Below are positions 4,500-24,772 of a stretch of 39,223 nucleotides of DNA, in pieces; positions within the stretch are counted from its first letter, which is position 1, and every line of letters starts with the position of its first letter. The DNA comes from an uncultured Acidobacteriia bacterium (GTDB taxonomy: Bacteria > Acidobacteriota > Terriglobia > Bryobacterales > Bryobacteraceae): assembly GCA_903900705.1 (NCBI GenBank), contig CAIUOG010000168.1:1-39223 (forward strand), written 5' to 3'. Position numbers and translations under genes: made by a program. The notes under the pieces were generated by a model. It was given only the letters and a program-made list of their open reading frames with translations, did no database searches and was not told the origin of the DNA.

Positions 4500-5453
4500 T
4501 TATCTCAGGAACATCGGGTCGACGTTCGACCCGTGAAGCCGCACGTGGCAGAGCGTGCATCTCTGGTATTTCGGATCCAGCATGTTATGCGTGGCCGATT
4601 GCGTGATCACGCCCGCATTCTGCCGCCCGAACGTGCCCGCGCCGTTGTGGCATTCCAGACAAAGCGTGAACACCACGGGTCTCCGCAGCAGCTTGGCATT
4701 GGTCGAGCCGTGCGGCATGTGGCAGTTGTCGCAGCCTTCCACGCGAACGCTGGCATGTTCGAAGACGAACGGCCCGCGCTTGTCCACGTGGCACTTCAGG
4801 CAGGGCATCTCGTTATCGTGCGCCGGGGCGAGCATGGCGGAACTGGTACCGGTCTTCCACGTGGGAGCGGCGGAACCATGCGGATTATGGCAGTCCGTAC
4901 ACTGCACGGACCCTTCATTCACCCGATGCTTCACCGGCATATCGAACTGCGCCCGCACCCCGGCATGGCACGAATAGCAGAGCTGCGTCTGCTGCTTTGC
5001 CAACAGAAACTTCGGGCTCTGCGACTTGTGAATCGAGTGGCAGCTGTTGCACACCACATCCGCTTCCGTGTGCGCCGACGCGCGCACAAACCCGCGCGCC
5101 ACATCCTTCGAATGGCATTCCAGACAGGTATTGAGCGCCTGATCGGGGCTCATCTGTGAGAACGCCCGGATCGTCGGCTTCCCCCCACCCGCCGCCACGT
5201 GGTTGCCTCCCGGACCGTGACACCCCTCGCACCCCGTCTTCGCGGGCTCTTCTTTGCCGCTGGCGATGGAACGGAAGTGCGGATTCTTATTGAAGTTGAG
5301 CCAGACGTCCGGGTGGCAGGTCTTGCACACCGCACTGCCCACGAACTTGTTCTCCGCCTTCGGTGCTGTCTGGGCGGGCGCGCACAAAGGGAGCGCGAGC
5401 AGCGCCAGTCTGAGAATTGTCAGGGGTCTCATCAATGTTACCCATTTGAACAT
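4500..5453 (-). CDS. DmsE/MtrA-like decahaem c-type cytochrome
   Basis: This 317-residue exported protein has exactly ten CXXCH haem-binding motifs: CKTCH, CEGCH, CLECH, CNSCH, CYSCH, CTDCH, CLKCH, CDNCH, CLECH and CTLCH. They are evenly spread with recurring CH.PHGS segments. Number, spacing and size match the MtrA/DmsE/PioA family, periplasmic multihaem wires that insert into an MtrB-type barrel. I chose ATG 5453 because AGGGGCG lies just upstream; ATG 5432 is an alternative. Both give a signal peptide ending near LCAPAQT. The open frame runs upstream to 6689 but overlaps gatB and has no haem motif there. The gene is first in a two-gene operon. No extracellular MtrC-type cytochrome or quinol-oxidising partner is nearby, so the direction of electron flow cannot be inferred. 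Confidence 0.88.
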   Translation of the reverse strand: MFKWVTLMRPLTILRLALLALPLCAPAQTAPKAENKFVGSAVCKTCHPDVWLNFNKNPHFRSIASGKEEPAKTGCEGCHGPGGNHVAAGGGKPTIRAFSQMSPDQALNTCLECHSKDVARGFVRASAHTEADVVCNSCHSIHKSQSPKFLLAKQQTQLCYSCHAGVRAQFDMPVKHRVNEGSVQCTDCHNPHGSAAPTWKTGTSSAMLAPAHDNEMPCLKCHVDKRGPFVFEHASVRVEGCDNCHMPHGSTNAKLLRRPVVFTLCLECHNGAGTFGRQNAGVITQSATHNMLDPKYQRCTLCHVRLHGSNVDPMFLR

Positions 5454-5488
5454 ATTACGCCCCTGATTGTTGTTCCGCAGTTGTGAAA

Positions 5489-5517
5489 TTCCTGTACACG
5501 TCCTCACCGGATATCCT
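5489..5517 (+). promoter_or_regulatory. Possible gatB promoter
   Basis: A -10-like TATCCT (5512-5517) sits 11 bp before the gatB ATG, with a weak -35-like TTCCTG (5489-5494) 17 bp upstream. The -10 resembles those of ppc (TATCCT) and dabB (TACCCT). No good Shine-Dalgarno sequence precedes the ATG, so a very short leader is plausible. Confidence 0.35.
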
Positions 5518-5528
5518 GATAAAGAACC

Positions 5529-7007
5529 ATGTCGACTGCCTATATGGAAGTTGCCCCGCCTGAACTGATCGCGAAGTACGAAGTCGTGATCGGTCTGGAG
5601 GTCCACGTCCAGCTCGCCACCCGAACCAAGATCTTTTGCGGCTGCCCCACCAGTTTCGGCGCTTCCCCCAATTCGAACGTCTGCCCCACCTGTCTGGGCT
5701 TGCCCGGCGCTCTGCCTGTGCTCAGCCGCGAAGCCGTCGAACTGGGCATGAAGGGAGCCATGGCGCTCAACTGCGCCATCCGTCCCGTGTCCCGCTTCGC
5801 CCGCAAGAATTACTTCTATCCGGATCTCCCCAAGGGCTACCAGATTTCCCAATACGATGAGCCGCTCGCCGAACACGGCTGGGTCGATATCGTGGTGGAC
5901 GGCGTTTCGAAGCGCGTCGGCGTCACCCGCGTCCACATGGAAGATGATGCCGGCAAGAGCCAGCACGACGGCTTTCGGGATTCCGAGCAATACACCTACG
6001 TCGATCTGAATCGCAGCGGCACGCCCCTGATTGAAATCGTCAGCGAGCCCGACATGCGCTCCTCCGACGAAGCCTTCGCCTACGTGACCGAGCTGAAGCA
6101 GAGCATCCAGTTCATGGACGTTTCCACCTGCGACATGGAGAAAGGCCATCTCCGCTGCGATGCCAACGTTTCCGTGCGCCTGTGGGGAGCGCCCGAATTC
6201 GGCACCAAGGTCGAGGTGAAGAACCTGAACTCCTTCCGCAACATGAAGCTCGCCATCGATTACGAAGTCGCCCGTCAGGTGGCCGTCATCGAAAGCGGCG
6301 GCAGGATCCATCAGGAAACGCGGCTCTACAATCCCGATACCGGCGTCACGGCCGGCATGCGCAGCAAAGAGCAGGCGCACGACTACCGCTACTTCCCCGA
6401 ACCCGACCTCGTCCCGCTGCGCATCAGCGACGCCTGGCAGGAGGAGATCCGCCGCACCATGCCCGAACTGCCGGCCGTCAAGCGCCGCCGCTTCATCGAA
6501 GAGCATGGCCTGAAAGAATATGACGCGGGCGTGCTCACCGCCACCCGCGCCAATTCCGAATACTACGAAGCCGTTGTCGAGATCGCCAAAGACGCCAAAA
6601 TCGCCGCCAACTGGGTGATGGGCGACCTCGCCGGACTCCTCAAGGCCGCCGGCCGGGAGATTGAAAATTCGCCCGTCAGCGCCACTCACCTGGGCGAACT
6701 GGTGGCCCTGATCGTCAAAGGCGAACTCACCGGCAAACTCGCCAAGGAAGTTCTGCCGAAGATGTTCGAATCCGGAGAGGCCCCTTCCGTCATCGTGGAA
6801 AGGGAAGGCCTGAAAACCATCAGCGATTCCGGCGCGATCGAAAAAATAGTCGACGAAGTCATCGCCGCGAATCCGAAGCAGGTGGAGCAGTACAAGGGTG
6901 GCAAGACAACCGTGATCGGCTTCCTCGTAGGCCAGGTGATGAAGCTCTCGCGCGGCCAGGCCAACCCCGCTTCCGTCAACGAGTTGATGAAAAAGAAACT
7001 GGATTAG
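5529..7007 (+). CDS. gatB: Asp-tRNA(Asn)/Glu-tRNA(Gln) amidotransferase subunit B
   Basis: This 492-residue protein is GatB of the GatCAB amidotransferase. The complex converts Glu-tRNA(Gln) and Asp-tRNA(Asn) to the correct amidated forms; GatB binds the tRNA and activates the carboxylate. The start VIGLEVHVQLATRTKIFCGC is diagnostic, and C37, C39, C52 and C55 match the zinc-binding cysteines of the catalytic cradle. Other signatures are FARKNYFYPDLPKGYQISQYD, VDLNRSG.PLIEIVSEPD and KVEVKNLNSFRN. The last 80 residues form the YqeY-like tRNA-binding tail (FLVGQVMKLSRGQANPASVNELMKKKL). Length is normal. Neither gatA nor gatC is adjacent, which is common when gat genes are dispersed. The bcp gene follows after 13 bp. 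Confidence 0.97.
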   Translation: MSTAYMEVAPPELIAKYEVVIGLEVHVQLATRTKIFCGCPTSFGASPNSNVCPTCLGLPGALPVLSREAVELGMKGAMALNCAIRPVSRFARKNYFYPDLPKGYQISQYDEPLAEHGWVDIVVDGVSKRVGVTRVHMEDDAGKSQHDGFRDSEQYTYVDLNRSGTPLIEIVSEPDMRSSDEAFAYVTELKQSIQFMDVSTCDMEKGHLRCDANVSVRLWGAPEFGTKVEVKNLNSFRNMKLAIDYEVARQVAVIESGGRIHQETRLYNPDTGVTAGMRSKEQAHDYRYFPEPDLVPLRISDAWQEEIRRTMPELPAVKRRRFIEEHGLKEYDAGVLTATRANSEYYEAVVEIAKDAKIAANWVMGDLAGLLKAAGREIENSPVSATHLGELVALIVKGELTGKLAKEVLPKMFESGEAPSVIVEREGLKTISDSGAIEKIVDEVIAANPKQVEQYKGGKTTVIGFLVGQVMKLSRGQANPASVNELMKKKLD

Positions 7008-9547: not shown

Positions 9548-10984
9548 TTAGTTGCCGGTTAACAGACCCCTGCCGTTGGTGCCTTCCACCTGGCTGTGCT
9601 TATAGCCCGCGTGAGGAGCCGCGTGGAACGGGAAATGGTCGAGCAGCGGAACGTCATTCTGGTTGACGCCATCGCCCAACTGGTTATTCGGAGCGTTGCC
9701 GTAACCCGGCACCAGCACGCCCGCCAGCGCGCGGAAGCCGATATCCACCACATCGTCGATCGGCCTGCGGCCACCAAACGGCCAGCCCGCATTGTCGCCG
9801 GCCAGCGGTCCCAGACGGTTCTGGTTCGCCACCGGCGTCGGCGGAATGGTCAGGTCAACGCGCGTGATATCCGGCACAAATACGCCGAGAATATCGTTCC
9901 TCGGCGCGGGCGGAACCTTCAGGCCAAAGACGCCGTTCAGGATGCCGCTCGCGAAGAACGGGTCTCCGATGAACTTCGCAAACTGCTGGTCGTTTGCCGG
10001 CTCGCTGCGGTTCCAGTAATCCTTCATGGGCAGCGGGATGAGCGCTTCCACCGTGAGCGGATTGCCCACACGGTCCACCTGCACGTAGTTGCCATAGTTG
10101 ATGGGGTCCTGCGGGCTGGGGCGCACTGTCACGATCTGGCGGTGGGTGGAGGCCCAGACGCCAATCTTCGCGTTGGGCGACTTCGGATCCGTGGGGACCG
10201 AACCATCCGCCGTGAGCATGTTGATGGGCACTTCCAGCGCGATCAGGCTGATGTTGTAACCGGCAAAGCCGTCCACCGCCGCCGGAGCCGCCGCGCCCGG
10301 ACCCGTGTCCGCCGAACCCGCCAGAACCGGAGCGGGAGTGCGGAAATTCAGCGTGTCGAACGTCGCGCCGCTGTCGAAGTAAAACGCGTCGTCACGCGGC
10401 CCCGCAAACACGCGCATCCCATTGGCGAGCGTGAACACGGAAGGCTGGCCAAGCGTCGCTTCATACGCGGGCGTGGACTTCGGCCCCAGATTCGGCGGCG
10501 CAACCGAAAGCGGGTGACCCTTGGCGTCGTTGTAAATAAACGTGGCCTGGTTGGTCTTCAGATTCCGGATCACGACCACATAGGTCTGGTAGAGGAAAAT
10601 CCCGGGATCGTCAATGCCCTTCAGCGTGCCGAAGTAAGAGACGAACGTGGGATTGGGGCGCAGCTGGGTCTGGAAGACAAGGTCGATCTGCAGATCGGGA
10701 TTGCCGTCCAGACCGCGGGCGTTGTTGACGTTGAATCGGTACAGAACGCTGTCCGAGAACTTGTAGTAGCTGGGACCGTTGTCAGGATTCTGAAAACCCT
10801 GAACGCTCATGCTCATGACCACGCGATCAGACCTGCCCGCTTCATAACTGCGGAAAACATACAGGTCATTCAGATTCGCGGTTTGATCCTCGAGCAGCAG
10901 CGGGCCGTTCCGGTGACTGGCGGCGAATACCGACGCGCAGGCCAGAGCGGCCAGTGCGACGGTTCGCTTTGCGGTGGGGAACAT
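9548..10984 (-). CDS. DUF4331 domain exported protein
   Basis: This 478-residue protein has a signal peptide (MFPTAKRTVALAALACASVFA). The mature protein opens with ASHRNGPLLLEDQTANLNDLYVFRS, the SHR..P...D..A...DLY.F signature of DUF4331, and the family covers nearly the whole length. The biochemical function of DUF4331 is not established. The end of the protein (PLLDHFPFHAAPHAGYKHSQ) is His-rich, which could mean metal binding, but that is speculation. A strong AAGGAG lies 9 bp before the ATG. It is first in an operon with exported TPR and HEAT-repeat proteins and is divergent from ppc across a 239-bp regulatory region. Confidence 0.88.
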   Translation of the reverse strand: MFPTAKRTVALAALACASVFAASHRNGPLLLEDQTANLNDLYVFRSYEAGRSDRVVMSMSVQGFQNPDNGPSYYKFSDSVLYRFNVNNARGLDGNPDLQIDLVFQTQLRPNPTFVSYFGTLKGIDDPGIFLYQTYVVVIRNLKTNQATFIYNDAKGHPLSVAPPNLGPKSTPAYEATLGQPSVFTLANGMRVFAGPRDDAFYFDSGATFDTLNFRTPAPVLAGSADTGPGAAAPAAVDGFAGYNISLIALEVPINMLTADGSVPTDPKSPNAKIGVWASTHRQIVTVRPSPQDPINYGNYVQVDRVGNPLTVEALIPLPMKDYWNRSEPANDQQFAKFIGDPFFASGILNGVFGLKVPPAPRNDILGVFVPDITRVDLTIPPTPVANQNRLGPLAGDNAGWPFGGRRPIDDVVDIGFRALAGVLVPGYGNAPNNQLGDGVNQNDVPLLDHFPFHAAPHAGYKHSQVEGTNGRGLLTGN

Positions 10985-11080
10985 AGATGCTTCTCCTTAA
11001 TTTGTGTTTGAGGGGTCCTGATATGCGACGCCTTCAGCAGCAAGTACGGAGAGTGCGCGCAATCGGATTTAGCGTTTTCA

Positions 11081-11096
11081 GATCCGGTGCGGATTC
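11081..11096. promoter_or_regulatory. ATCCG-CGGAT inverted repeat
   Basis: ATCCG-GTG-CGGAT forms a perfect short dyad (11082-11094). Its ATCCG half-site is the core of the three tandem units that begin at 11092, so it may be another site for the same protein. It lies in the DUF4331/ppc divergent gap. Confidence 0.35.
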
Positions 11097-11160
11097 ATCC
11101 GTTTTCATGGGATCGATTCATCCGTTTTCATGGGATCGACATATCCGCTTCCATAAAACG
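11092..11160. repeat. Three tandem 23-bp iteron-like units upstream of ppc
   Basis: Units 11092-11114 and 11115-11137 are identical over all 23 bp. The third (11138-11160) is degenerate but keeps ATCCGyTTyCAT. The 23-bp period is close to two helical turns, so the sites face the same side of the DNA, as with operators for a cooperatively binding regulator. The array sits about 80 bp upstream of the inferred ppc promoter, in the divergent gap, and could act on either gene. Confidence 0.7.
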
Positions 11161-11170
11161 GAACGTACTC

Positions 11171-11223
11171 ATATAGAACTTCTATTGGATATAAGCGTCC
11201 CTCGTTCGCTATCCTCGAAAAGC
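11171..11223 (+). promoter_or_regulatory. ppc promoter with palindromic regulator box
   Basis: ATAGAACTTCTAT (11173-11185) is a perfect palindrome around its central C. It runs into a -35-like TTGGAT (11185-11190), then 19 bp, then TATCCT (11210-11215), 8 bp before ATG 11224. The same block with identical spacing precedes dabB. I infer a LysR-type box and a leaderless or near-leaderless ppc transcript. Confidence 0.65.
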
Positions 11224-13977
11224 ATGAACAGTACCGCTTCCGGGGATTTGAGCAAGGGGAACATCAGCAGGCAGGAACTGCGCCTGGCGGAACTCGCCAA
11301 GTGCGACCAGGATGGCGAGTTTCTGCTGGAAGCCTTTCGCCACGCCCTTTCGGCCATGGGCGAGGCCGCGCTGGCGGAGTTCGTCGGACGGGCTTTCGCG
11401 GGCGCCGCGCAGGACTCTCCCGGCTTCCCCTCGCGCGGCGCGGAAGCGCTTTCCGTCGCCTTCCAGTTGCTCGGCATGGCGGAGGAAAACGCGGGCAATC
11501 AGGCGCGCCGCCTGAATGAAATCGCCCACGGCCCCGATAGTTCGCCCGGCACCTGGCCCAACCAGTTGCGGCTGCTTCGCGAGGCGTCCTGGACGCCCGC
11601 GCAGATCAGCGGGGTGATTCCCCGGATCGAAGTGCAGCCCGTGCTGACCGCGCATCCCACCGAAGCCCGCCGCACCTCCGTCCTCGAACGCCATCGCGAA
11701 ATCTACCTGATGCTGGTGGAACGCGAAAGCACCCTGCTCACGCCGCTCGAACAGACCGGCCTCCGCACGCGCATCCAGACCGCAATTGAAGCGCTCTGGA
11801 GAACCGGCGAAATGATTCTCGACCGGCCCGATGTGGACGCGGAAATCCGCGGCACTCTGCACTACATTTCGCACGTCTTCCCCAGCGTGCTCCAACTCAT
11901 GTCGGAGCGCTTCCGCCAATCCTGGGAATGGGTCTTTCCGGAGGAAAAAGTTCCCGCGCCACCGCGCCTGTCCTTCGGCAGCTGGGTCGGGGGGGATCGC
12001 GACGGGCACCCGTTCGTCACCACCGACGTGACGCGCGGTTCGCTCGAACTGTTGCGCTCCCAGGCGATTGAAGTGCTTCGCACGCATCTCGCCTCTCTGG
12101 CAACAAAGCTGACCCTCTCAGACGCGGTCCAGCCCGCGCCCCGGTCCCTCTACGATCACCTCGCCCGCTTCGAGCGCACCAAAGCCACGGAACGGGCCAG
12201 TGAACCCTGGCGTCGCTCCGTGCACGTCATGATGGACCGTCTGCCCCGGCCGTCTGCATCTCCTGACGCCTACCGCCGCCACGAGGAACTGGAAGAGGAT
12301 CTCCGCCGCCTCGCCGCGTCCCTCGAAGAAGTTGGCGCGCAGGCCATCGTGCGGGACCACGTGGCCCCCCTGCAGGACCTGGTGTCCGCCTATGGCTTTC
12401 ACGGCGCCGCGCTCGATATCCGGCAGAACAGCACCTTTCACAACCGCGCCATCGGGCAGTTACTGGAGGCCGCGGGCGCGACGCCCGATGGCGCATCCTA
12501 TGCGGATTGGCCGGAAGCCCGTCGCCGCGAATGGATCGATCGGGAACTGGCGTCGCCGCGGCCATTCACGGTTTCAACGGCGTCCCTCGCGCCGGAAGCC
12601 GCGGCCTCGGTCGGCCTGTTCCGCCTGGTGCGGGAATGGCTTGCGGCGAACGGCAGCGCCGGCCTGGGTTCCTTCATCGTCAGCATGACCCACGCCGCTT
12701 CCGACCTGCTCGTTGTATATCTGCTCGCTCGCGAGGCCGGTCTGGCGCATGGCGCGGCGGGCGAACTCACGCCGGAGATCGCGGTGACCCCGCTCTTCGA
12801 AACCATCGACGACCTCGAAGCCAGCCCGGACATCATGGCGGAGTTCCTCGCGCATCCCGCCGCGCGACGGTCTCTCGACTACATTCAGCGGCGTGACAAA
12901 ACCGCGCGGCCGGTGCAGGAAATCATGATCGGCTACAGCGACAGCAACAAGGATGGTGGCATCCTCGCCAGCCAGTGGCACCTTCGCAAGGCACAGTTGC
13001 GGCTCACCGCCGTGGCGGAGCGGGCCGGCGTGGAACTGCGGTTTTTCCACGGCCGCGGCGGTACCATCGGGCGCGGCGCGGGTCCCTTCAACGCCTTCCT
13101 CGCGGGCCTGCCGGCCGGAACTCTGAAAGGCGGCCTGCGCACCACGGAGCAGGGCGAAGTGATCGCCCAGAAGTATGCCAACCGGCTCACCGCCGCCCTG
13201 CATCTGGAACGCATGCTGGCGGGCGCGACACGCCGGACCCTGATGCACCAGACGCTGGAGCGCGAGACGTCCGACTCTGTGGAAGAAGCCACCGAAGCGA
13301 TTGCCGCCGCCAGCCGCCGCGTCTACCGAAGTCTCATCGCGGCGCCCGGTTTCATGGAGTTTTTCGCGCAGGCCACGCCGATTGACGCCATCGAAAACAG
13401 CCGCATCGGTTCGCGCCCCTCGCGGCGCACCGGCCGCCGCACGCTCGAAGATCTGCGCGCCATCCCCTGGGTCTTCAGCTGGAGCCAGGCCCGTTATAAT
13501 CTCCCCGGCTGGTACGGTGTGGGCAGCGCCTTTCATGAGGTTTGCGGGGACGATCCGGCGCGCTGGGACCTTTTCGCACATGCCGCGAAAGACTGGCCGT
13601 TTCTTTCCTACGTGCTCCACAACGTGGAGTTCAGCGTGGCCGCGGCCGACCCCGAACTGATGGCCGAATATGCCTCCCTGGTGGAGGATGCCGAAGTACG
13701 GGAACGCTTCCTCGAAAGGATTCTGGCCGAGTATGAACTGACGCGGAGCGTCCTCGCGCGGCTCTATCCGAACGAACGCGGCGTGCGGCGGCCCAGGATG
13801 GAGAAGGCCATCGCCATCCGCCGCCATGCGCTCACCCTCCTGCATCGCGAACAGATCGCGGCATTGAAGCGTTGGCGCGAAGCCGTGCGCACACGCGCGG
13901 CGGACGCCGAGCAGTGCCTGCAATCCCTGCTCGTCACCGTGAACGCCATCGCCGGCGGCCTGAAAACCACGGGCTGA
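11224..13977 (+). CDS. ppc: Phosphoenolpyruvate carboxylase
   Basis: This protein carboxylates PEP with bicarbonate to oxaloacetate, the anaplerotic feed of the TCA cycle. From ATG 11224 it is 917 residues, normal for the bacterial enzyme. Signatures are VQPVLTAHPTEARR with catalytic His144, GSWVGGDRDGHPFVTT, IGYSDSNKDGG and the glycine-rich loop FHGRGGTIGRGAGP. The frame is open back to 10987, but that stretch encodes the iteron repeats and lies before the inferred promoter, so I reject it. The allosteric aspartate site looks altered: the Lys of the E. coli RPAKR motif is Arg (RPSRR), and the C-terminal RNTG is KTTG, losing the inhibitor-binding Asn. The gene converges on lysR with a 9-bp gap and shares its promoter design with dabB. 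Confidence 0.96.
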   Translation: MNSTASGDLSKGNISRQELRLAELAKCDQDGEFLLEAFRHALSAMGEAALAEFVGRAFAGAAQDSPGFPSRGAEALSVAFQLLGMAEENAGNQARRLNEIAHGPDSSPGTWPNQLRLLREASWTPAQISGVIPRIEVQPVLTAHPTEARRTSVLERHREIYLMLVERESTLLTPLEQTGLRTRIQTAIEALWRTGEMILDRPDVDAEIRGTLHYISHVFPSVLQLMSERFRQSWEWVFPEEKVPAPPRLSFGSWVGGDRDGHPFVTTDVTRGSLELLRSQAIEVLRTHLASLATKLTLSDAVQPAPRSLYDHLARFERTKATERASEPWRRSVHVMMDRLPRPSASPDAYRRHEELEEDLRRLAASLEEVGAQAIVRDHVAPLQDLVSAYGFHGAALDIRQNSTFHNRAIGQLLEAAGATPDGASYADWPEARRREWIDRELASPRPFTVSTASLAPEAAASVGLFRLVREWLAANGSAGLGSFIVSMTHAASDLLVVYLLAREAGLAHGAAGELTPEIAVTPLFETIDDLEASPDIMAEFLAHPAARRSLDYIQRRDKTARPVQEIMIGYSDSNKDGGILASQWHLRKAQLRLTAVAERAGVELRFFHGRGGTIGRGAGPFNAFLAGLPAGTLKGGLRTTEQGEVIAQKYANRLTAALHLERMLAGATRRTLMHQTLERETSDSVEEATEAIAAASRRVYRSLIAAPGFMEFFAQATPIDAIENSRIGSRPSRRTGRRTLEDLRAIPWVFSWSQARYNLPGWYGVGSAFHEVCGDDPARWDLFAHAAKDWPFLSYVLHNVEFSVAAADPELMAEYASLVEDAEVRERFLERILAEYELTRSVLARLYPNERGVRRPRMEKAIAIRRHALTLLHREQIAALKRWREAVRTRAADAEQCLQSLLVTVNAIAGGLKTTG

Positions 13978-13986
13978 TCCAGCCCC

Positions 13987-14925
13987 TCAGGGCTCCGGTT
14001 TTGCAACCGGCCGCGCCTTGCTCTTTCGCTCCCCCGGTGTGGCGTGCTGCAGCAGTTCCTTCACCAGAATGTTGGGAAAGGTGCGGCTCGGCGTAATGGC
14101 GTAAAACTTCTCCGTGATGGCGGAAAGACGGAAGCGCTCCACCAGCATGCCGGTGCGCAGTTCATCCTGCACCACCACCTTCGGCACCAGCGCCACGGCC
14201 TTGAGCCGCAGCGCCAGCACGCGCAGCATCGCCATGTCGTCCACTTCCGCCGCAATCACCGGGCGTATGCCGGCCTGCTCCAGAATCAGATCGAAGGACG
14301 AACGGACGTCGCTTTCGAGGCTCGGCAACAGCACGGGCGTCCCCCGGAAGTCCTCCGGAAAGCGGAACGCCTTCTGGCCCGCCACAGGCCTCGCGACCAG
14401 ACTGATTTCCTGTTCGGCGAGCAACTGGCATTGATATCCGGTCTCGGCGTCGCGGCGCAGCGCCTGGTTCGTCAGCACCACATCCACTTCGTGATTCCGC
14501 AATTGCGCGATCATGTCACGCACGCCACCGGTTCGCAGCACCAGTTCCACGTCGCGCCGGTTCCGCAGCGGCTTCACGAACTCCCACTGGAAGTTGCGGG
14601 AAAGTGTCGCCACCGCCCCCACGCGCAGCACCTGACGCGTCCGCGGAGAGCGGTGCTGCAGCGTGTCCACCAGTTCGTCTCCGGTCCGAAAAATCGAGTC
14701 CGCGTATTGCAGTGCCAGCCTGCCGGCTTCCGTCAGTGCCAGCCGCCGGTTCTGCCGCGTGAACAGCGGGTGCCCCAGACTTTCTTCAAGGTGCCGGAGC
14801 TGCACGCTGAGCGCGGATTGCGCCACATTCAGCATCGCCGCGGCCCTTGTCAGGCTGCCTTCATGTGCGATCACGCGGAAGTAGCGCAGGTGATGGTAGT
14901 TCAGCGTTGCATGAGTGGAAATCAT
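13987..14925 (-). CDS. LysR-family transcriptional regulator
   Basis: This 312-residue regulator has an N-terminal winged helix-turn-helix at residues 10-70 (LRYFRVIAHEGSLTRAAAMLNVAQSALSVQLRHLEESLGHPLFTR). A periplasmic-binding-protein-like effector domain follows from about residue 95. It is divergent from dabB across 73 bp and convergent with ppc. LysR proteins commonly control divergent neighbours and themselves, and CbbR-type members regulate carbon-fixation and DAB genes in autotrophs. The palindromic box shared by the ppc and dabB promoters is the obvious candidate target. The box also lies directly upstream of a perfect TATAAT for this gene, which fits autorepression. The effector is unknown. 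The first ATG is used; no Shine-Dalgarno sequence is apparent. Confidence 0.92.
   Translation of the reverse strand: MISTHATLNYHHLRYFRVIAHEGSLTRAAAMLNVAQSALSVQLRHLEESLGHPLFTRQNRRLALTEAGRLALQYADSIFRTGDELVDTLQHRSPRTRQVLRVGAVATLSRNFQWEFVKPLRNRRDVELVLRTGGVRDMIAQLRNHEVDVVLTNQALRRDAETGYQCQLLAEQEISLVARPVAGQKAFRFPEDFRGTPVLLPSLESDVRSSFDLILEQAGIRPVIAAEVDDMAMLRVLALRLKAVALVPKVVVQDELRTGMLVERFRLSAITEKFYAITPSRTFPNILVKELLQHATPGERKSKARPVAKPEP
13995..14010. terminator. Small hairpin at the ppc/lysR junction
   Basis: CCGGTT-TTGC-AACCGG forms a perfect 6-bp stem just inside the 3' end of lysR and 18 bp past the ppc stop. It could help terminate one or both convergent transcripts. It is short and lacks a clear T-run. 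Confidence 0.25.
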
Positions 14926-14942
14926 ATAGAGAACAGAACAAA

Positions 14943-14998
14943 ATTATATAAAACTTCTATTGGATCTATTGATCTTCCGCTCGCTACCCTGATACAGG
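14943..14998. promoter_or_regulatory. lysR/dabB divergent promoter with regulator box
   Basis: ATAAAACTTCTAT (14948-14960) differs by one base from the palindrome upstream of ppc. As there, it leads into TTGGAT (14960-14965), 19 bp, TACCCT (14985-14990), then 8 bp to ATG 14999. On the other strand a perfect TATAAT (14948-14943) lies 17 bp before the lysR ATG. A bound regulator could therefore activate dabB and block lysR together. Confidence 0.65.
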
Positions 14999-16444
14999 AT
15001 GCTTACAACACAGAAAGTGGCGCGTTCTTCCGCCTCCGCCGCCGCGCTGAGAGGACAGTACTTCGCGGCCCTCTGTCTTGCCGGGGCCATCGCCGCCGGT
15101 TTCTTTATGGACGCGCTGACCAGCGTGCTCCTGGTGCTCAGCACGTCTCTGTTTTTCGCCGTGGTTCGCTACTCCCGCCGCTACCTCGCGGGCGACCCCG
15201 GCCAGGGCCGCTTCACCTTCTGGCTCTGCGGCGCGGGCGCTTGTGTCTTCGCTCTCATACTGGTACAAAACCTTCTGTTGTTTGCACTGGCCTGGACGGG
15301 CATCAGCCTCAGTCTCCACCAGTTGCTGCAGTTCTACTCCCACCGTCCCGGCGCTCGCCTCGCGGCGCGGAAAAAGTTCCTCATCAGCCGCCTGGGCGAT
15401 TGCGCGCTGGCAGCCGCTCTGGCGCTGGCTTACGCAACGTTCGGCACGTGGGACTTCGCCGCCATGTTCACCGCCGCGGACCACCTGCGGCAACAGGGCC
15501 CCGCGCCGCTGCCAGCCACCGTACACTGGCTCGCCTGCCTGCTGGCCTTCGCGGCCCTGCTGAAATCCGCCCAGTTCCCCTTTCACAGCTGGTTGCCGGA
15601 CACCATGGAGACGCCCACGCCCGTCTCCGCGCTCATGCACGCCGGAATCATCAACGGCGGCGGCATCCTGATCCTCCGCCTGCGCCCCATCATTGCGCTT
15701 TCCGATGCGGCGCTGCTGCTGCTCGCGCTCACAGGCGGCTTCACGGCCCTCTTCGCCTCCGTGGTGATGCTCACCCAGGCCAGCGTGAAGCGCCAGCTGG
15801 CCTTCTCCACCGTTGCGCAAATGGGTTTCATGATGCTCGAATGCGGCGTTGGCGCATTCCACCTCGCCCTGCTGCACATCGTGGCGCACTCCTTCTATAA
15901 GGCCTTCACGTTCCTGTCCTCCGGCAGCGTGGTGGCTGATCGCAAAACCTCGGGCCTCATCGCTCCCCGCCGGCCCGTCCCCGCCGGAGTCCTTCTCTCC
16001 GGCCTCGCCGCCGCACTGGCTGTGGTCTTCGCTGTCAGCTACGGCTTCGGCGCGCACACTCCGGAGCAACCGGTGCTCACCGGCATCTTCACGCTCGCAC
16101 TGGCGCAACTTTTCTGGACTTCCTGGACCGCCCCGCGAACCTTCGCCCGACTCCCCTTCGGCCTGCTGCTGGGCGTGGCCTTCACCGTGGCCTACTTCCT
16201 CGCGGGCTTTGCCGCATCACACGTCCTCGCGCCCCTGCAAAGGGACAACCCGGTGGTCACCGCGGCCCTGCTGTGTATGTTCTGCGTCGTCGCTGTGATG
16301 CAGACGCAGTTGCCGCGCGCCGCGCAGGTCCCCTGGCTCGGCCGGATGTATGTGCACGCCCGCAACGGCTTCTACTTCAACACCCTCGCCAACAGAATCA
16401 CCATGGCGATCTGGCCGGTCCGGATGACCGGGGAAGGTCTCTAG
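14999..16444 (+). CDS. dabB: DabB, NuoL-like membrane subunit of the DAB bicarbonate-accumulation system
   Basis: This 481-residue polytopic membrane protein belongs to the proton-translocating NuoL/NdhF/MrpA family. The core motif LLKSAQFPFHSWLPDTMETPTPVSALMHAGIINGGG (Lys189, His196) and HIVAHSFYKAFTFLSSGSV carry the conserved Lys and His residues of the proton path. It is shorter than NuoL (about 610 residues), lacks the long lateral helix, and no other complex I gene is near. The 3' neighbour is DabA, so this is DabB, which couples the cation gradient to unidirectional CO2 hydration at the cytoplasmic face. Four bases separate its stop from dabA. The -10 box ends 8 bp before the ATG, so the transcript is probably leaderless. 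Confidence 0.9.
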   Translation: MLTTQKVARSSASAAALRGQYFAALCLAGAIAAGFFMDALTSVLLVLSTSLFFAVVRYSRRYLAGDPGQGRFTFWLCGAGACVFALILVQNLLLFALAWTGISLSLHQLLQFYSHRPGARLAARKKFLISRLGDCALAAALALAYATFGTWDFAAMFTAADHLRQQGPAPLPATVHWLACLLAFAALLKSAQFPFHSWLPDTMETPTPVSALMHAGIINGGGILILRLRPIIALSDAALLLLALTGGFTALFASVVMLTQASVKRQLAFSTVAQMGFMMLECGVGAFHLALLHIVAHSFYKAFTFLSSGSVVADRKTSGLIAPRRPVPAGVLLSGLAAALAVVFAVSYGFGAHTPEQPVLTGIFTLALAQLFWTSWTAPRTFARLPFGLLLGVAFTVAYFLAGFAASHVLAPLQRDNPVVTAALLCMFCVVAVMQTQLPRAAQVPWLGRMYVHARNGFYFNTLANRITMAIWPVRMTGEGL

Positions 16445-16448
16445 AGAT

Positions 16449-18746
16449 ATGCCAATGACGCTCGATCCTCCGCGGACAACCATGCGGGAAAACCTCGCCG
16501 CCCAGGCCATTGACCAGGCCTGCGGACGCATTCCGCCACTGTGGCCGCTGCAAAACTTCGTCGCCGTAAATCCGTTTCTCGGCCTCGCGGACCTCCGCTT
16601 CACCGATGCCTCGCAACTGCTGGAACGCGTGGCGCACAAGGGCCTGCTGATGGAGCCCGCGTATTATCTCGGGCTGCTGCGCGACGGCGTCATCTCGGAC
16701 GAAGACATCCGCGCGGCCTTTGCCGATTCCTCCGGCGCCATGCCGCCGGCCAGCCCCCGCGCGTGGCTCGAACAGGAATTGCTCCTCCCCTCGCAAACTC
16801 TCCGGGTTCTCACCGTCGCCGACCAGCTGGATCGCGCGCACGGCGCCGCGTGGAGCACTTTCGTCACCGACGAGATTTCCAAGTGGTGCTCGTCTTACTT
16901 CGATGAGGCGCAGGGCTCGTGGTCCATGCCCTGGCGCGATCATTCCCTCTATCAGGCCTGGCGGCTGTCCGCCATGGCCGATGCCAATCCGGAAGTGTTC
17001 GGACTGCGCGGCTTCCGGTCCTTCGTCAGCCACCTCCCGGAATCGCGCGACGAGGCTCTCAGCCAGTTGCTGACGCACCTGCGGAAACACGTCGCCATCC
17101 CCGCCGAACGCACGCCCGATTTCCTGCATCGCGAACTGGTCAGCGTCTTCGGCTGGAGCGCCTGGGCCACTTATCATGATCGCCGGCGCGGCAGCGCCAA
17201 TCTGGTGCGGGACGTGCTCGCGATCCGGCTCGCCTACGACGCCGCGCTGGCTTCCGCCTTCACCGTTACGGGGTCCTGTGAGAGCCCGTCCGCAAACGGC
17301 GTCACTCCGGCCCGACACATCGCGCAAATCGCCGCCGAAACAGCCTTCCGGCGCACAGTTGCGGCAAAGCTCGCCACGCACGCTGCGCAGCCTTCCGCCA
17401 GAGCGTCCCTGCAGGCCGCCTTCTGCATCGACGTCCGATCCGAAGCCTATCGGCGCGCGCTCGAAGCCCAGGCCCCCGGCATTCAGACGCTTGGCTTCGC
17501 CGGCTTCTTCGGCATCGCCCTCGAATTCGAAGGTTCCGCCCGCTGCCCCGTGCTGCTCTCGCCCGCGCACAAGGTGGCGCAGCGGCGCGCCGTCGATCCT
17601 CTCAGCGGTCTCGCGGCACGCGCCACCGCTGTCTGGAAGAACCTGACCACCTCCGCGTCGGCCTGCTTCTCGTCCGTTGAAACCGGAGGCCTGCTCTTTG
17701 CCGCCAGCCTGCTCAAAAGACTCACCGGCTCCGCGAAACCCCCGGCCGGCAATGCGTCCGTACTCATTTCCCAAATCCCCACCGAAACCGGCGTGGACCT
17801 GGTGGCGGGAGCACTGAAGAACATGAGTCTGGACCCCGCCACTCTCGCCCCGGTCGTACTGCTCTGCGGTCACGGCAGTCGGACGGAAAACAACCCCTAC
17901 GCCGCCAGCCTCGATTGCGGCGCCTGTGGCGGACACAAAGGCGACGTCAACGCCCGCATCGCCGCGGCGCTGATGAACGATCCCGCCATTCGCGAAGGCC
18001 TGCAACAGCGTGGCATCCGGATCCCCGCCGATACCGTGTTCGTCGCCGGCCTGCACATCACCACCACAGACGAGGTGATTCTGTATGACACCGAACGCCT
18101 GCCGGAAGCGACGCGCATCGAACTGGTTCGCCTGGTAAGTGACGCTTCCGCGCTGGCTCTCCGCGAACGCAGCGGGCAGTCGGCAGACGAGGCCCGGCGG
18201 CGCAGCACGGACTGGTCCGAAGTCCGCCCCGAATGGGGCCTGGCCGGCAACGCCGCTTTCATCGCCGCCCCCCGGTCCAGAACGCGCGATATCAATCTGC
18301 ACGGCCGCGCCTTTCTGCACGATTACGATGCCGCCGCCGATCCCGATTCCGCCGTGCTGACCATGATTCTCACGGCGCCCGTCATTGTCGCCGGCTGGAT
18401 CAATCTGCAGTACTACGGCTCAGTCGTGAACAACGCCCTGTTTGGCAGCGGCAACAAAGTGCTGCACAACGTGGTGGGCGCGTTCGGCGTGTGGGAGGGC
18501 AACGCGGGCGACCTCCGCACCGGCCTGCCTCTGCAATCCCTCCACGACGGCACGAAGTGGGTGCACGAACCGCTCCGCCTGCAGGTCTTCATTGAAGCGC
18601 CGCGCGAACGGATCGACGCCGTTCTGCGCGCGAACCCGGACGTCCTGCGCCTCATCGAAAACGAGTGGATCCACCTGATCGCCATCGAAGGCAGCACCTT
18701 CTTCGATTGGCGGGGACGCGCGGCCTGGCGCGACCTCTCCGCCTGA
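16449..18746 (+). CDS. dabA: DabA (DUF2309/UPF0753), zinc-binding CO2 hydration subunit
   Basis: This 765-residue protein belongs to the DUF2309 family, the soluble beta-carbonic-anhydrase-like partner of DabB. The expected zinc/catalytic residues are present: Cys326 and Asp328 in AAFCIDVRSE, His475 in LLCGHGSRTENN, and Cys490 in SLDCGACGGH. The His-Cys spacing of 15 equals that of the Halothiobacillus protein (H524, C539). Other family motifs are PLWPLQNFVAVNPFLG near the N-terminus and AGWINLQYYGSVVNNALFGSGNKVLHNVVG near the end. The complex is thought to hydrate CO2 to bicarbonate vectorially, driven by the membrane potential. The gene sits 4 bp after dabB in a two-gene operon. ATG 16455 is an alternative start. 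Confidence 0.94.
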   Translation: MPMTLDPPRTTMRENLAAQAIDQACGRIPPLWPLQNFVAVNPFLGLADLRFTDASQLLERVAHKGLLMEPAYYLGLLRDGVISDEDIRAAFADSSGAMPPASPRAWLEQELLLPSQTLRVLTVADQLDRAHGAAWSTFVTDEISKWCSSYFDEAQGSWSMPWRDHSLYQAWRLSAMADANPEVFGLRGFRSFVSHLPESRDEALSQLLTHLRKHVAIPAERTPDFLHRELVSVFGWSAWATYHDRRRGSANLVRDVLAIRLAYDAALASAFTVTGSCESPSANGVTPARHIAQIAAETAFRRTVAAKLATHAAQPSARASLQAAFCIDVRSEAYRRALEAQAPGIQTLGFAGFFGIALEFEGSARCPVLLSPAHKVAQRRAVDPLSGLAARATAVWKNLTTSASACFSSVETGGLLFAASLLKRLTGSAKPPAGNASVLISQIPTETGVDLVAGALKNMSLDPATLAPVVLLCGHGSRTENNPYAASLDCGACGGHKGDVNARIAAALMNDPAIREGLQQRGIRIPADTVFVAGLHITTTDEVILYDTERLPEATRIELVRLVSDASALALRERSGQSADEARRRSTDWSEVRPEWGLAGNAAFIAAPRSRTRDINLHGRAFLHDYDAAADPDSAVLTMILTAPVIVAGWINLQYYGSVVNNALFGSGNKVLHNVVGAFGVWEGNAGDLRTGLPLQSLHDGTKWVHEPLRLQVFIEAPRERIDAVLRANPDVLRLIENEWIHLIAIEGSTFFDWRGRAAWRDLSA

Positions 18747-18748
18747 TG

Positions 18749-18799
18749 TGAAATTTCAGATTTGACGCTCGCTCGCCCCCGGGGATATGATGGGGAACG
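18749..18799 (+). promoter_or_regulatory. Promoter of the FAD oxidoreductase-glycosidase pair
   Basis: TTGACG (18762-18767), 18 bp, TATGAT (18786-18791), then 8 bp to ATG 18800: the best sigma70-like promoter in the window. TGAAATTTCAGAT (18749-18761) abuts the -35 and recurs in two other intergenic regions. GGGGAA before the ATG could serve as a Shine-Dalgarno sequence only if transcription starts further upstream. Confidence 0.6.
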
Positions 18800-20740
18800 A
18801 TGCGGCGTCGAGACGTTCTGAATTCCATGATGGGCGGTTATTCGCTGGTGGTTCTGGCCGGCGAGAGTGCTTCCGGGCAGTCGCCCCAGGCTCCTCTGGT
18901 TCCCCCGGCCCCCGACCGCTTCACTCCCATTGCTCCTCACACCGCCGGCGCGCCCGCTTCCCCGGAGCCGCACATGCGTCTGGTGGACCTGCGGACAGAC
19001 GTGCTGGTGGCCGGCGGCGGCCTCGCCGGCGTCTGCGCCGCCCTCTCCGCCGCGCGTCACGGGGCGCGCGTCGTGCTCGTACAGGATCGTTCCCGTCTGG
19101 GAGGCAATTCTTCGAGCGAAGTGAAGATGCACGTCGTCGGAGCAAACAACCACACCGGGCGTCCCGGCTGGCGTGACAGCGGCATCATTGAGGAACTCCG
19201 CCTGGATGACGCCGCGAACAATCCCCACCGCTCGTTTGAGATGTGGGATCTGCTGCTTTACGACAAGGTGATGAGCGAACCCAACATCACCCTGCTGCTT
19301 GAAACCGCGGTCTATTCAGTGGAGAAATCCGGCGACAGCATTCGTCGCGTCATGGCCCGTTGCGACAAGAGCGAGCATCTTTACCGCATCGAAGCGGAGA
19401 TGTTTTGTGATTGCACGGGCGATAGCCGCCTCGGCATTGAAGCCGGTGCTGATTTCCGGACCGGCCGTGAGGCCCGTTCCGAATTCCAGGAACCTCTCGC
19501 GCCGGAAAAGGCCGATGGCGATACGCTCGGTTCCAGCATCCTTTTCACCTCGAAGCGCTTCCGGCGGAAAGTGCCCTTCACCGCGCCGCAATGGGCCCGC
19601 AAAATCACGAAAGAGCAGTTGATTCACCGCAAAATCGATACCTGGGAGTACGGCTACTGGTGGGTCGAGTGGGGCGGCGATTTCGACACCATCGCCGACA
19701 ACGAACGGATCCGCTTCGAACTGCTCTCCATCACCCTCGGCGTCTGGGATTACATCAAAAACAGCGGCGATTTTCCGGATTCCGCCAACTGGGGCATGGA
19801 CTGGATCGGCATGATGCCGGGCAAGCGCGGCAGTCGCCGTCTGCTGGGCGATCACATCCTCACCCAGCAGGATCTCTTCGCCGGAAAATTCGAAGACGCC
19901 GTTGCCATCGGCGGCTGGCCGCTTGATGACCATCCACCCGCCGGTTTCGATAAGCCCGAACTCAAGCCCAACGTCGCCATCCGCACGCCGGAGGTCTACA
20001 ACATTCCGCTGCGGGCGCTCTACAGCCGCAACGTGCGCAATCTCTTCATGGCCGGCCGCAACATCAGCGCCACGCACGTGGCTTTCACGTCGGCGCGCGT
20101 CATGGCCACCTGCGCCGTCATCGGGCAGGCGGCTGGCGCCGCCGCCGCGCAGTGCGTCGAAAAATCCATCACCCCGCGCGCTCTCGCGGCGGACGCGAAA
20201 CAGGTGCGGCGCCTGCAGCAGACACTGTTGCGGGATGACCAGACCATCAAAGGCATGGGCAACGAAGACGCCCTCGACCATGCCCGCACGGCCCGCGTCT
20301 CCGCTTCCGGCGAACTCGGTAAGGCGAAGGCGGCCCTCGTGATCGACGGCCACACCCGCGATATTCCAGACGCCCATGGCGACCCCGTCGAATTCCATCA
20401 CTGGGAAGGTCAGCTTCCCGCCTGGCTTCAGCTCGATTGGCCGGAGGCAAAGCAGATTCGCGAAATCCAGCTCACCTTCGACACCGGCTTCAAGCGTGAA
20501 CTCACGCTCTCCGCGCAGGACTCCGTCAGCGCCCACGTCATCCGCGAGCCGCAGCCTGAAACCGTGCGCGACTACCGCGTGAAAGCCGGCGACAAAGTGC
20601 TCGTCTCCGTGAACGGCAATCACCAGCGGCTCAACCGCCACCGCTTCGAACCGATCCGCACGAACTCCCTGCGCGTGGAAGTGGACGCGGCCAACGGCGG
20701 CGACGAAGCGCGCATCTTTGAGATTCGCTGCTACAGCTGA
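18800..20740 (+). CDS. Tat-exported FAD-dependent oxidoreductase
   Basis: This 646-residue protein starts MRRRDVLNSMMGGYSLVVLAG, a twin-arginine signal. The Rossmann dinucleotide fold carries GGGLAG at residues 72-77, followed by RLGGNSSSEV, and ends with RNLFMAGRNISATHVAFTSARVMATCAVIGQAAGAAAA, the typical FAD-contact block of the FAD_oxidored (PF12831) family. The 150 C-terminal residues look like a beta-sandwich of galactose-binding/discoidin type. Members of this family often accompany glycosidases in polysaccharide-degrading loci, but the substrate is not known. Tat export of a folded FAD protein fits periplasmic oxidation of a sugar or related compound. The GH16 fusion follows after 8 bp. 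Confidence 0.82.
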   Translation: MRRRDVLNSMMGGYSLVVLAGESASGQSPQAPLVPPAPDRFTPIAPHTAGAPASPEPHMRLVDLRTDVLVAGGGLAGVCAALSAARHGARVVLVQDRSRLGGNSSSEVKMHVVGANNHTGRPGWRDSGIIEELRLDDAANNPHRSFEMWDLLLYDKVMSEPNITLLLETAVYSVEKSGDSIRRVMARCDKSEHLYRIEAEMFCDCTGDSRLGIEAGADFRTGREARSEFQEPLAPEKADGDTLGSSILFTSKRFRRKVPFTAPQWARKITKEQLIHRKIDTWEYGYWWVEWGGDFDTIADNERIRFELLSITLGVWDYIKNSGDFPDSANWGMDWIGMMPGKRGSRRLLGDHILTQQDLFAGKFEDAVAIGGWPLDDHPPAGFDKPELKPNVAIRTPEVYNIPLRALYSRNVRNLFMAGRNISATHVAFTSARVMATCAVIGQAAGAAAAQCVEKSITPRALAADAKQVRRLQQTLLRDDQTIKGMGNEDALDHARTARVSASGELGKAKAALVIDGHTRDIPDAHGDPVEFHHWEGQLPAWLQLDWPEAKQIREIQLTFDTGFKRELTLSAQDSVSAHVIREPQPETVRDYRVKAGDKVLVSVNGNHQRLNRHRFEPIRTNSLRVEVDAANGGDEARIFEIRCYS

Positions 20741-22512: not shown

Positions 22513-24735
22513 CTACTTCCCGCCGATGGCTCGCAGCGAAGCTTCGGCCTGCTGCCGGATCCCGGGCTCGGCATCGGCCAGAGCCTTTCGGAAATGCTCC
22601 GCGGCCTCCGCCAACTCGCGCCGGTTTGCCAGCAACGTGCCGAGATCCAGCTGCGCCTTCCCGAACCCGGGACGAAGCCGCACGGCCTCTGCATACTCCC
22701 GCAACGCCGCCCCCGTCTGGCCGCGCTGTTCCAGCAGCCCGCCCAGCAAATCATGCGCCTCGGCCAGCCCCGGCTCAGCTTTCACGGCGGTGGCCAGATG
22801 CCGCTCCGCGTCGTTGTAATTCCCTTCGCGCGCCAGCGTAACGCCGTAGTTGAACTCGTACAGCGCCTTACCGGGGGCCAGCCGCACCGCCTTTTCAAAA
22901 TGCCAGGCGGCTTCCGCGGTCCGGCCACGGGAAGCCAGCAGTGCAGCCAGATTCGCGTGCGCGTCGGCAAGGAAGGGATCCAGCCGCAACGCTGCCAGAA
23001 ACGCCTGCTCCGCTGGCTCCGTCGCGCCGGTCTCCACCAGCACCGCGCCCCGGCTGTTCTGTGCGTCGGCCATGCCCGGATCGAGCGCGGCCGCCTTTTC
23101 GAACGACGCCAGCGCCTCCGCCTTCCTGCCCTGTTCCGCTTCCAGCAGGCCCAGGTCATACCACGCGCCGGCATCGTCCGGACTGGTGCGCACCGCCCTG
23201 CGCAGAAGCTCACCATCCTTCGTCACGCCGGCGAGGCGGCGCGCGATCAGCGCGGAATCCGGCCGGAGCCGCTGCGCTTCGCGGTAAGCGGCGGCGGCCT
23301 TCTCGCTCACGCCCCGGTCCCGATACGCGTCACCCAGTTCCACCCACGGCTCCGGCCGCTGGTTCGTGCCCTTGCGCAGTTCGGCCTCCAGCCGCGGGAT
23401 GCCCGCGTCAACGTTGCTCTTCGCCACCAGCTGCGCCATCGCCGCGTAGAGCGGGTCATCTCCGTAATACGGCACTACTTCGCCCCGATATTCGTACGCC
23501 GCCTTAGCGGCAGGTTCGAAGGTCTTCCCGATACGGTGGTCGGTCATCATGGCATGCGCCACATCATCCGTGCGCCGCTTCGGCATATGGCACTCCACGC
23601 AATTCGCCTCAACCGTATGCTTCCGGCCGGCCGTCAGCGAAGCATGGCACTGTCGACAAACGGCGTTGTAATGTGTGGCTGCCTCCGGGCCATGCGGAAC
23701 ATCATGCGGGTTGTGACACGTGGTGCACGTCAGCGCGCCGCCGCTTTTCAGAAAGCACTGCGATTGCCGCAGGCGGTACGCCGAACTCACGATCTCAAAC
23801 TTCTTCTCATGGCCCGTGCCCGGTGCGTGGTCGAAGAAAACCCGGAAAGCACTCAGCGGTTCGCCCGCGCGATACGAGAACGGCCCGCGCCCGAACCTTC
23901 GGATGGCATCGGGCAGCGGAAAGCTGGTCGTCTCCAGGTGGCACTGCAGGCAGACCTCCATGCGCTCCTTCGCGGGCAGTCGCGCCGGATTCACAATCGC
24001 GCGCCGGACTGCCTCTGCCGTCACGCCCTTCGCCTGCGCCGCCGCCACGTGCTGCGCCCCGGGACCGTGGCAGCGCTGGCAGTCGATCCCCTCCGGCATC
24101 GTCCCCGTGAACACCGGCTCCGCGCCGCCATCGTCATGGCCCGCCGGAATCGAGGGATAAGCATTGTGGCAAAACATGCAGTCATAGCCCACCTTGCGGC
24201 GCGCGGGCCACCGCTCGGAATCGTACCCCGGATTCAGCGCCCAGACCCCGCCCCGCTCGGCATACCACGCGAGCGGAAGTTCAATCAGCGTGCCATGCCC
24301 GGTGTCAGGCACGCCCGTCTGATGCAGGCCAGTTCGATGCAGGAAGGTCCGCACATGGATTCCTGAGCCCATGACGAAGTCCACCTTCAACTCCTCGGCA
24401 TTGACTTCCTCACCGTGCGGCCCCGTCTGCCAGCGCCGCTGGTAGAGTCCGTCCGCGCGCCGCAACATGCTGAACCAGCTTCCGGAGGGCTTGTGATAAA
24501 CCGGCGCGACCGTGGTGAAATCCCCCGTCGGCTGATAGAAAGACCGCCCCATGCCCGTCCGCCGATAGGTCTCGAAGATCTGTGCATGGCAGCCGGCACA
24601 CACGCGGGAATCGGCAACGGATTCCGCCGCGGGCGGGGCAGAGGGCGGGGCGGGGGAACGCGAACAACTCGTGGTCACCAGCAGCGCGCAGAAGAGCGCG
24701 GAGCGGAAAACCTTGTTCTGGTGGGCGGGTCTCAC
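22513..24735 (-). CDS. Heptahaem c-type cytochrome with C-terminal TPR domain
   Basis: From GTG 24735 this is a protein of about 740 residues. The N-terminal half has seven CXXCH motifs (CAGCH, CMFCH, CQRCH, CLQCH, CTTCH, CRQCH, CVECH) with the layout of cytochrome c554-like proteins. The last 300 residues are about eight TPRs (AWYDLGLLEAEQGRKAEALASFEKAAALDP and similar). I prefer the GTG because it leaves a normal signal peptide (FRSALFCALLVTTSC, possibly a lipoprotein) and a TACGAT box lies 9 bp upstream. ATG 24786 or 24774 would add a hydrophilic extension. Such cytochrome-TPR fusions are frequent in acidobacteria and planctomycetes; the role is presumably periplasmic electron transfer within a protein complex, but the partner is unknown. 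Confidence 0.82.
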   Translation of the reverse strand: MRPAHQNKVFRSALFCALLVTTSCSRSPAPPSAPPAAESVADSRVCAGCHAQIFETYRRTGMGRSFYQPTGDFTTVAPVYHKPSGSWFSMLRRADGLYQRRWQTGPHGEEVNAEELKVDFVMGSGIHVRTFLHRTGLHQTGVPDTGHGTLIELPLAWYAERGGVWALNPGYDSERWPARRKVGYDCMFCHNAYPSIPAGHDDGGAEPVFTGTMPEGIDCQRCHGPGAQHVAAAQAKGVTAEAVRRAIVNPARLPAKERMEVCLQCHLETTSFPLPDAIRRFGRGPFSYRAGEPLSAFRVFFDHAPGTGHEKKFEIVSSAYRLRQSQCFLKSGGALTCTTCHNPHDVPHGPEAATHYNAVCRQCHASLTAGRKHTVEANCVECHMPKRRTDDVAHAMMTDHRIGKTFEPAAKAAYEYRGEVVPYYGDDPLYAAMAQLVAKSNVDAGIPRLEAELRKGTNQRPEPWVELGDAYRDRGVSEKAAAAYREAQRLRPDSALIARRLAGVTKDGELLRRAVRTSPDDAGAWYDLGLLEAEQGRKAEALASFEKAAALDPGMADAQNSRGAVLVETGATEPAEQAFLAALRLDPFLADAHANLAALLASRGRTAEAAWHFEKAVRLAPGKALYEFNYGVTLAREGNYNDAERHLATAVKAEPGLAEAHDLLGGLLEQRGQTGAALREYAEAVRLRPGFGKAQLDLGTLLANRRELAEAAEHFRKALADAEPGIRQQAEASLRAIGGK

Positions 24736-24772
24736 GGAACAACCATCGTACTCCGCGACCCCTCCTTTTGCC

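Follow-up and report, generated by a model that had tools for sequence, protein, structure and literature searches.

The ppc-lysR-dabBA locus

The window analysed here is the whole of contig CAIUOG010000168.1 (C168), 39,223 nucleotides from the 6.1-Mb, 99.9% complete genome of an uncultured Acidobacteriia bacterium. Our subject is a group of four genes within it, coding for a phosphoenolpyruvate carboxylase (PEPC; ppc), a LysR-type regulator (lysR), and the two subunits of a predicted DAB-type bicarbonate pump (dabB and dabA), together with two putative operators that lie before ppc and before dabB (Table 1). An earlier note on this DNA had grouped the four genes, and Pfam matches to all four products bear the grouping out: ppc and lysR are convergent across a 9-nt gap, dabB diverges from lysR, and dabA begins 4 nt after dabB.

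Table 1. Genes and putative regulatory sites of the locus, in window coordinates
Feature	Position	Strand	Basis
Putative LysR-type operator upstream of ppc, 40 bp	11157..11196	+	27 nt to proposed ATG; matrix score 45.7 bits; exact match to degenerate pattern
ppc, phosphoenolpyruvate carboxylase, 917 aa	11224..13977	+	PF00311 (PEPcase) 732 bits; TAHPT, FHGRGG, GYSDS; PDB PEPC homologues
lysR, LysR-type regulator	13987..14925	-	PF00126 (HTH_1) and PF03466 (LysR_substrate)
Putative LysR-type operator in lysR-dabB gap, 40 bp	14932..14971	+	27 nt to dabB ATG; matrix score 46.9 bits
dabB, NuoL-like membrane subunit, 481 aa, N-terminally short	14999..16444	+	PF00361 (Proton_antipo_M); match to 9rd0_B (DabB2); alignment
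dabA, zinc beta-carbonic anhydrase-like subunit, compact, 765 aa	16449..18746	+	PF10070 775 bits; tested DAB2 residues kept

The four metal and catalytic residues of DabA singled out in the earlier note (C326, D328, H475, and C490) are all present, and in an alignment with the solved DAB2 complex (DabA2-DabB2, PDB 9rd0) they match its catalytic residues Cys351, Asp353, His524, and Cys539. By the same alignment, with positions counted by hand, R330, E411, and the Leu of EWGLAGN correspond to Arg355, Glu444, and Leu658. DabA is a PF10070 subunit with the Cys2His zinc site and Asp-Arg dyad of the DabAB/DAC type, and the gene adjoining it codes for the NuoL-like partner, which aligns with DabB2 (9rd0_B) from residue 29 at 237 bits. 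The window system resembles DAB2, which from the gene tag hneap we take to come from Halothiobacillus neapolitanus, in having the same two subunits and in keeping the zinc ligands, the dyad, and the equivalents of the finger Glu444 and of Leu658. It differs in its compact DabA (765 versus 870 aa), in a DabB that lacks about 50 N-terminal residues, as it does in 8/8 compact relatives aligned, and in having ppc and lysR as neighbours. The functional roles of these DAB2 residues are described in PMC13144422. We assigned the compact class by the length of the match, taking 17 genomes plus the window genome (18 in all) and leaving out genomes with DabA fragments only (e.g., G159, G185, and G246).

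The open reading frame (ORF) of ppc opens at 10987; we prefer the ATG at 11224, just after the upstream operator, because the operator would otherwise fall inside the gene and because, even in the shorter form, the Pfam match does not start until residue 73. The start proposed earlier, 11092, is the first base of a 23-bp tandem repeat (11092-11154) that precedes the operator and consists of 2.1 perfect copies with a degenerate third. The PEPcase match spans profile positions 66-919 of 919 and includes TAHPT and FHGRGG, motifs that matter in PEPC; the product falls under the NCBIfam equivalog cut-off (719 versus 815 bits). LysR has the helix-turn-helix and substrate domains, a divergent target gene, and a conserved site in the intervening gap, all as expected of its family, and a homologue 70-82% identical to it lies beside dabB in 16/17 relatives' loci; at the remaining locus (L122) the contig begins inside dabB.

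A putative operator before dabB and before ppc

The sequence ATATARAACTTCTATTGGATMTA occurs, with up to three mismatches, at two sites in the window (11171 and 14946) and in none of 100 shuffles, and AACTTCTATTGGAT, with at most one mismatch, occurs at two sites in the whole genome, one at ppc and the other at dabB. Both 40-bp operators begin 67 nt before an ATG, and 46 of the 67 bases that precede the two start codons agree, where random pairs of window 67-mers agree at 38 or fewer (up to 200,000 draws). The likeness is closer in the operator (30/40) than in the leader that follows it (16/27).

The lysR-dabB gaps of 16 relatives, with their operator sites lined up by eye, gave a consensus of roughly RGAAC-N7-YAYV-N4-WTMTATTKG. 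Allowing one mismatch, this degenerate pattern has 25 matches in the 18 compact-dabA genomes, of which 18 are exact and seven, at other places, have one mismatch. One of the exact matches is at the window ppc and the other 17 fall in lysR-dabB gaps, with G079 assigned from ORFs; the reversed pattern, as a control, gave a single match in all 18 genomes together, and G087 has no match to the degenerate pattern at this threshold. The first letter, R, had been widened to admit the ppc site, which with A is a one-mismatch match, and the fair test is therefore a matrix made from relatives' sites only. We built such a matrix from 15/17 relatives' sites, with the window excluded and L116 and L180 left out (L180 was not scanned). 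It gives the two window operators the scores in Table 1 and the next unrelated window site -1.0 bits; reverse-strand echoes of the two operators score 9.6 and 9.2 bits. Outside lysR-dabB gaps, nothing among the 1,265,828 positions of 39 other loci scores above 8.3 bits, and the left-out site of L116 scores 39.3 bits. We rejected the idea that the operator is a common repeat, given its near-uniqueness in the genome, its absence from shuffles, and its high matrix scores.

We think it probable that the locus is a two-promoter LysR regulon joining bicarbonate supply by DabAB to PEPC. LysR would bind the shared 40-bp operator at both dabB and ppc, and the bicarbonate-producing complex and the bicarbonate-consuming enzyme would thereby be made together, the trigger probably being a shortage of CO2 or bicarbonate, or a high demand for oxaloacetate. 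DabAB would use proton-motive force to drive the one-way hydration of CO2 to HCO3- at its zinc site, and PEPC would then combine HCO3- with phosphoenolpyruvate to yield oxaloacetate. From the genes and sites themselves we infer LysR binding at both operators, the sign of control, the signal, the activity of the pump, and the flux; regulatory coupling of dab and ppc is well supported by the sequence comparisons, and a flow of bicarbonate from pump to PEPC is plausible.

A GCTAnCCT element lies 8 nt before the start codons of ppc and dabB (11208-11223 and 14983-14998), with looser likenesses before dabB in several relatives; if it is a -10 box, the ppc and dabB mRNAs would be nearly leaderless. 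Among cross-phylum loci with a divergent lysR, 30/40 have one of their two best matrix matches in the lysR-dabB gap, in the orientation of dabB. Most of these scores are weak, and an operator-like site in these gaps across phyla is suggestive only.

Recurrent linkage in the genus

In a sample of 250 genomes from the order, DabA was matched in 89 and PEPC in 26; G250 was searched for PEPC only. Nineteen genomes of the genus were searched for PEPC and yielded five intact genes, each less than 3 kb from a compact dabA, so that linkage peculiar to the window strain is rejected. There are three arrangements: ppc convergent with lysR, followed by dabB and dabA, in the window genome, G101, and G085; ppc behind dabA and cysD in G087; and ppc behind dabA, cysD, purE, purK, and a 129-aa ORF in G064. 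G217 has a ppc remnant, which we did not count as ppc; it is frame-broken, lies away from dab (G217:C240; L179:7797-8224), and reaches at most 62% identity with the type of ppc found in the relatives, and G217 is the sister of G101, which keeps ppc next to lysR.

In a quick tree, the window PEPC falls in a different clade from the other four linked PEPCs, to which it is about 32% identical. The window DabA branches beside a clade of eight genus members, its sister, in which all four linked relatives fall. With distant PEPC types at the same locus, either ppc and dab came together on two or more occasions or one PEPC replaced another in situ, and either origin, as suggested by these trees, speaks for a kept ppc-dab association. 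We consider a neutral origin very unlikely, in which promoter duplication or a rearrangement hotspot produced both the linkage and the repeated promoter piece with no metabolic meaning. Such an origin would fit a linkage seen in one genus only, the tandem repeat close before ppc, and arrangements that vary among relatives; however, it fits poorly with two distant PEPC clades at one address, and with an operator that is better kept than the leader and stands at an identical distance from the ATG. In relatives a similar coupling may come about otherwise, where the dab gene string takes in ppc, alone or accompanied by purEK, or where ppc adjoins lysR but has no operator itself.

Sixteen further PEPC loci (L131-L146), among which G228 (L138) is the sole compact-DabA genome, have no operator just upstream of ppc and no match to lysR, dabB, dabA, cysD, or purEK at E 1e-5. 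At one of these loci (L133; G032:C4), in a genome with no DabA match, a PEPC of the window clade is encoded about 4 kb from a beta-carbonic anhydrase gene.

Possible clients of the pump

PEPC and pyruvate carboxylase use HCO3-, and RuBisCO and phosphoenolpyruvate carboxykinase use CO2 (PMC10880623). No PYC_OADA match was found in the window genome, and PEPC is the only bicarbonate-type anaplerotic enzyme that we found there. Where a compact-dab genome has an intact ppc, PYC_OADA is missing in 5/6 cases; where it has none, PYC_OADA is present in 9/12 (Fisher p 0.043, kinship ignored); G045, G079, and G217 have neither an intact ppc nor PYC_OADA, and in none of the ten genomes that possess PYC_OADA does it lie near compact dabA by assembly coordinates.

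No canonical RuBisCO was found in the window genome, as the view of an anaplerotic pump anticipates, and the pump is thereby set apart from RuBisCO-linked CO2-concentrating systems. That it feeds RuBisCO or another autotrophic pathway is hardly credible: the sole RuBisCO-family match in the genome, on another contig, is nearest OiaX (447 bits, cut-off 700; type III RuBisCO, 244 bits), and its gene adjoins one for an OiaK-like kinase (466 bits, cut-off 700), which makes sugar-acid breakdown likelier than CO2 fixation. With only this OiaX-like protein to hand, we rejected RuBisCO as a client. RuBisCO-family matches also occur in nine other genomes.

A frequent neighbour of dabA is cysD, for the small subunit of ATP sulfurylase, which lies downstream of dabA in 9/18 compact loci (L118, L119, L121, L123, and L125-L129) and is present in 14/80 multi-phylum dab loci. 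In 11 of these it stands directly behind dabA, across several phyla (L005, L012, L014, L019, L024, L026, L028, L040, L073, L076, and L083), and in 4/4 loci scanned (L005, L019, L040, and L076) a DUF6671 gene follows it. These neighbours, together with a best NCBIfam match of LysR to NhaR (117 versus 219 bits, under cut-off), raise the question of whether the regulon answers sulfur, Na+, or pH, with bicarbonate supply secondary. We regard this as unlikely, because the window has no cysD match, the DabA active site is intact, and ppc and purK code for users of HCO3- that have no link to sulfur.

PurK, which uses ATP and HCO3-, is another possible client. Genes purE-purK stand in the dab gene string of 2/18 compact loci (G064 and G228; coordinates L123:12847-14489 and L121:7288-8954), and PurK of both strings meets NCBIfam cut-offs. 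At L015 (2837-4440), purE and purK lie about 2 kb before dabB. DabAB may be a general supplier of bicarbonate to every biosynthetic carboxylation (acetyl-CoA carboxylase, PurK, carbamoyl phosphate, and PEPC), with PEPC one client that in this lineage happened to come under the same regulator; to this we give a little less than an even chance. The purE-purK strings argue for it, as do the occurrence of LysR-dabBA without ppc in many phyla and the fact that 6/11 genus genomes with an examined compact dab locus have no intact ppc. A role of this kind was proposed for MpsAB of Staphylococcus aureus (PMC6689103). Against it stands an operator that, in the window genome, is found only at dabB and ppc. 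General supply is compatible with the two-promoter regulon and differs from it on the purpose of the pump.

The earlier claim that the pump feeds anaplerosis through one module stands in part, being favoured by the shared operator, the linkage within the genus, and a genome with neither canonical RuBisCO nor PYC_OADA. Several observations weigh against it. The shared promoter block that the earlier note names among its refuting conditions is real in the window and is kept at dabB in relatives, but where the four other linked genomes are concerned we saw no operator upstream of ppc, and a sigma-70 scan of 10950-19000 gave its sole promoter-like match at 18762, with none at ppc or dabB. The ppc-dab linkage, whose conservation across acidobacteria was in question, recurs within the genus and was not found beyond it, ppc and dab being unlinked on the assemblies in 7/7 genomes outside the genus in which we found both, all but one of them fragmented assemblies. 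Two belong to the order (G098, with a long-type DabA, and G228) and five to a phylum sample of 396 genomes, 9 with DabA and 106 with PEPC (G362, G522, G524, G573, and G597); a general ppc-DAB module across Acidobacteria beyond the genus is not supported. No ppc was found in the 80 multi-phylum dab loci (up to 8 kb on each side, often less), a set that includes L004, very probably the genus member G045. With cysD commoner than ppc at dab loci, PEPC looks like a lineage-specific client and not the general purpose of the pump, and G064 has a PYC_OADA protein as well as ppc.

Carbonic anhydrase (CA) weighs on the same side. The elsewhere-in-genome search, which for CA covered the beta family, found one beta-CA outside the window (G000:C166), and all 18 compact-dab genomes have a PF00484 match, so that DabAB need not be the sole source of bicarbonate. 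A cytoplasmic CA could also dissipate an accumulated bicarbonate pool. DAB and beta-CA thus can coexist, although they are said rarely to do so in one species (PMC8552792). In three genomes a dabA, of the long type or a fragment, lies about 3-4.5 kb from a beta-CA gene (G063:C50, G233:C41, and G159:C196).

Parts of this picture are already in print, namely the proposal that DAB-type pumps serve anaplerosis in heterotrophs (PMC6689103) and the LysR/nuoL-ybcC (DabBA) layout (PMC5700660). MpsAB is a DAB homologue in a heterotroph that complements an Escherichia coli CA mutant; it was proposed to supply pyruvate carboxylase, acetyl-CoA carboxylase, and purine carboxylation, with PEPC named in one sentence (PMC6689103). 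S. aureus has no CA (PMC8567241), in contrast to the window genome, which with its beta-CA is not a CA-free DAB heterotroph of that type, and the available text on MpsAB describes no operator shared with a carboxylase. COGNAT clade A, noted in 2017 with its function then unknown, pairs nuoL-ybcC with a reverse LysR gene in the same layout as lysR and dabBA here, but in the accessible text it has neither ppc nor an operator (PMC5700660).

Regulators and gene pairs elsewhere offer looser parallels. The cyanobacterial CcmR/NdhR and CmpR are LysR regulators of inorganic-carbon uptake, and Synechocystis cmpR is divergent from its transporter operon (PMC4390856); these are photoautotrophs, however, and ppc is not among the targets named in the text at hand, which are uptake systems and psbA. 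In autotrophs, inorganic-carbon transporter genes stand beside carboxylation-pathway genes, but the organisms are those of the Calvin-Benson-Bassham and reductive tricarboxylic acid cycles, and no ppc-DAC pair is named in the portion of text consulted (PMC10880623). In engineered E. coli, a carboxylating gene (ppc or pck) and a transporter gene (sbtA or bicA) had to be expressed together for succinate to increase significantly (PMC4667291); that system is artificial, and its transporters differ from that of the window locus. Searches of an open-licence library turned up no title or abstract opening that describes ppc and dab under one operator.

What appears to be new here is the putatively shared operator together with the repeated association with bicarbonate-using enzymes. 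We give an even chance to a broader proposal, that the LysR of compact DabAB loci repeatedly captured users of HCO3- (two distant PEPCs, and PurK with PurE) by a shared operator or by placement in the dab string, making up a RuBisCO-free anaplerotic carbon-concentrating mechanism alongside beta-CA. Arguments about the role of DAB in heterotrophs have relied chiefly on growth in air and on the rescue of CA mutants (as in PMC6689103); the shared operator and recurrent PEPC and PurK linkage point to likely client enzymes in one lineage, and the idea of matched supply and demand becomes directly testable by DNA-binding, expression, and rescue assays. Away from the locus, the window encodes proteins with CXXCH motifs of the multihaem type at 4500-6689 and 22513-24786, one of them with TPR repeats.

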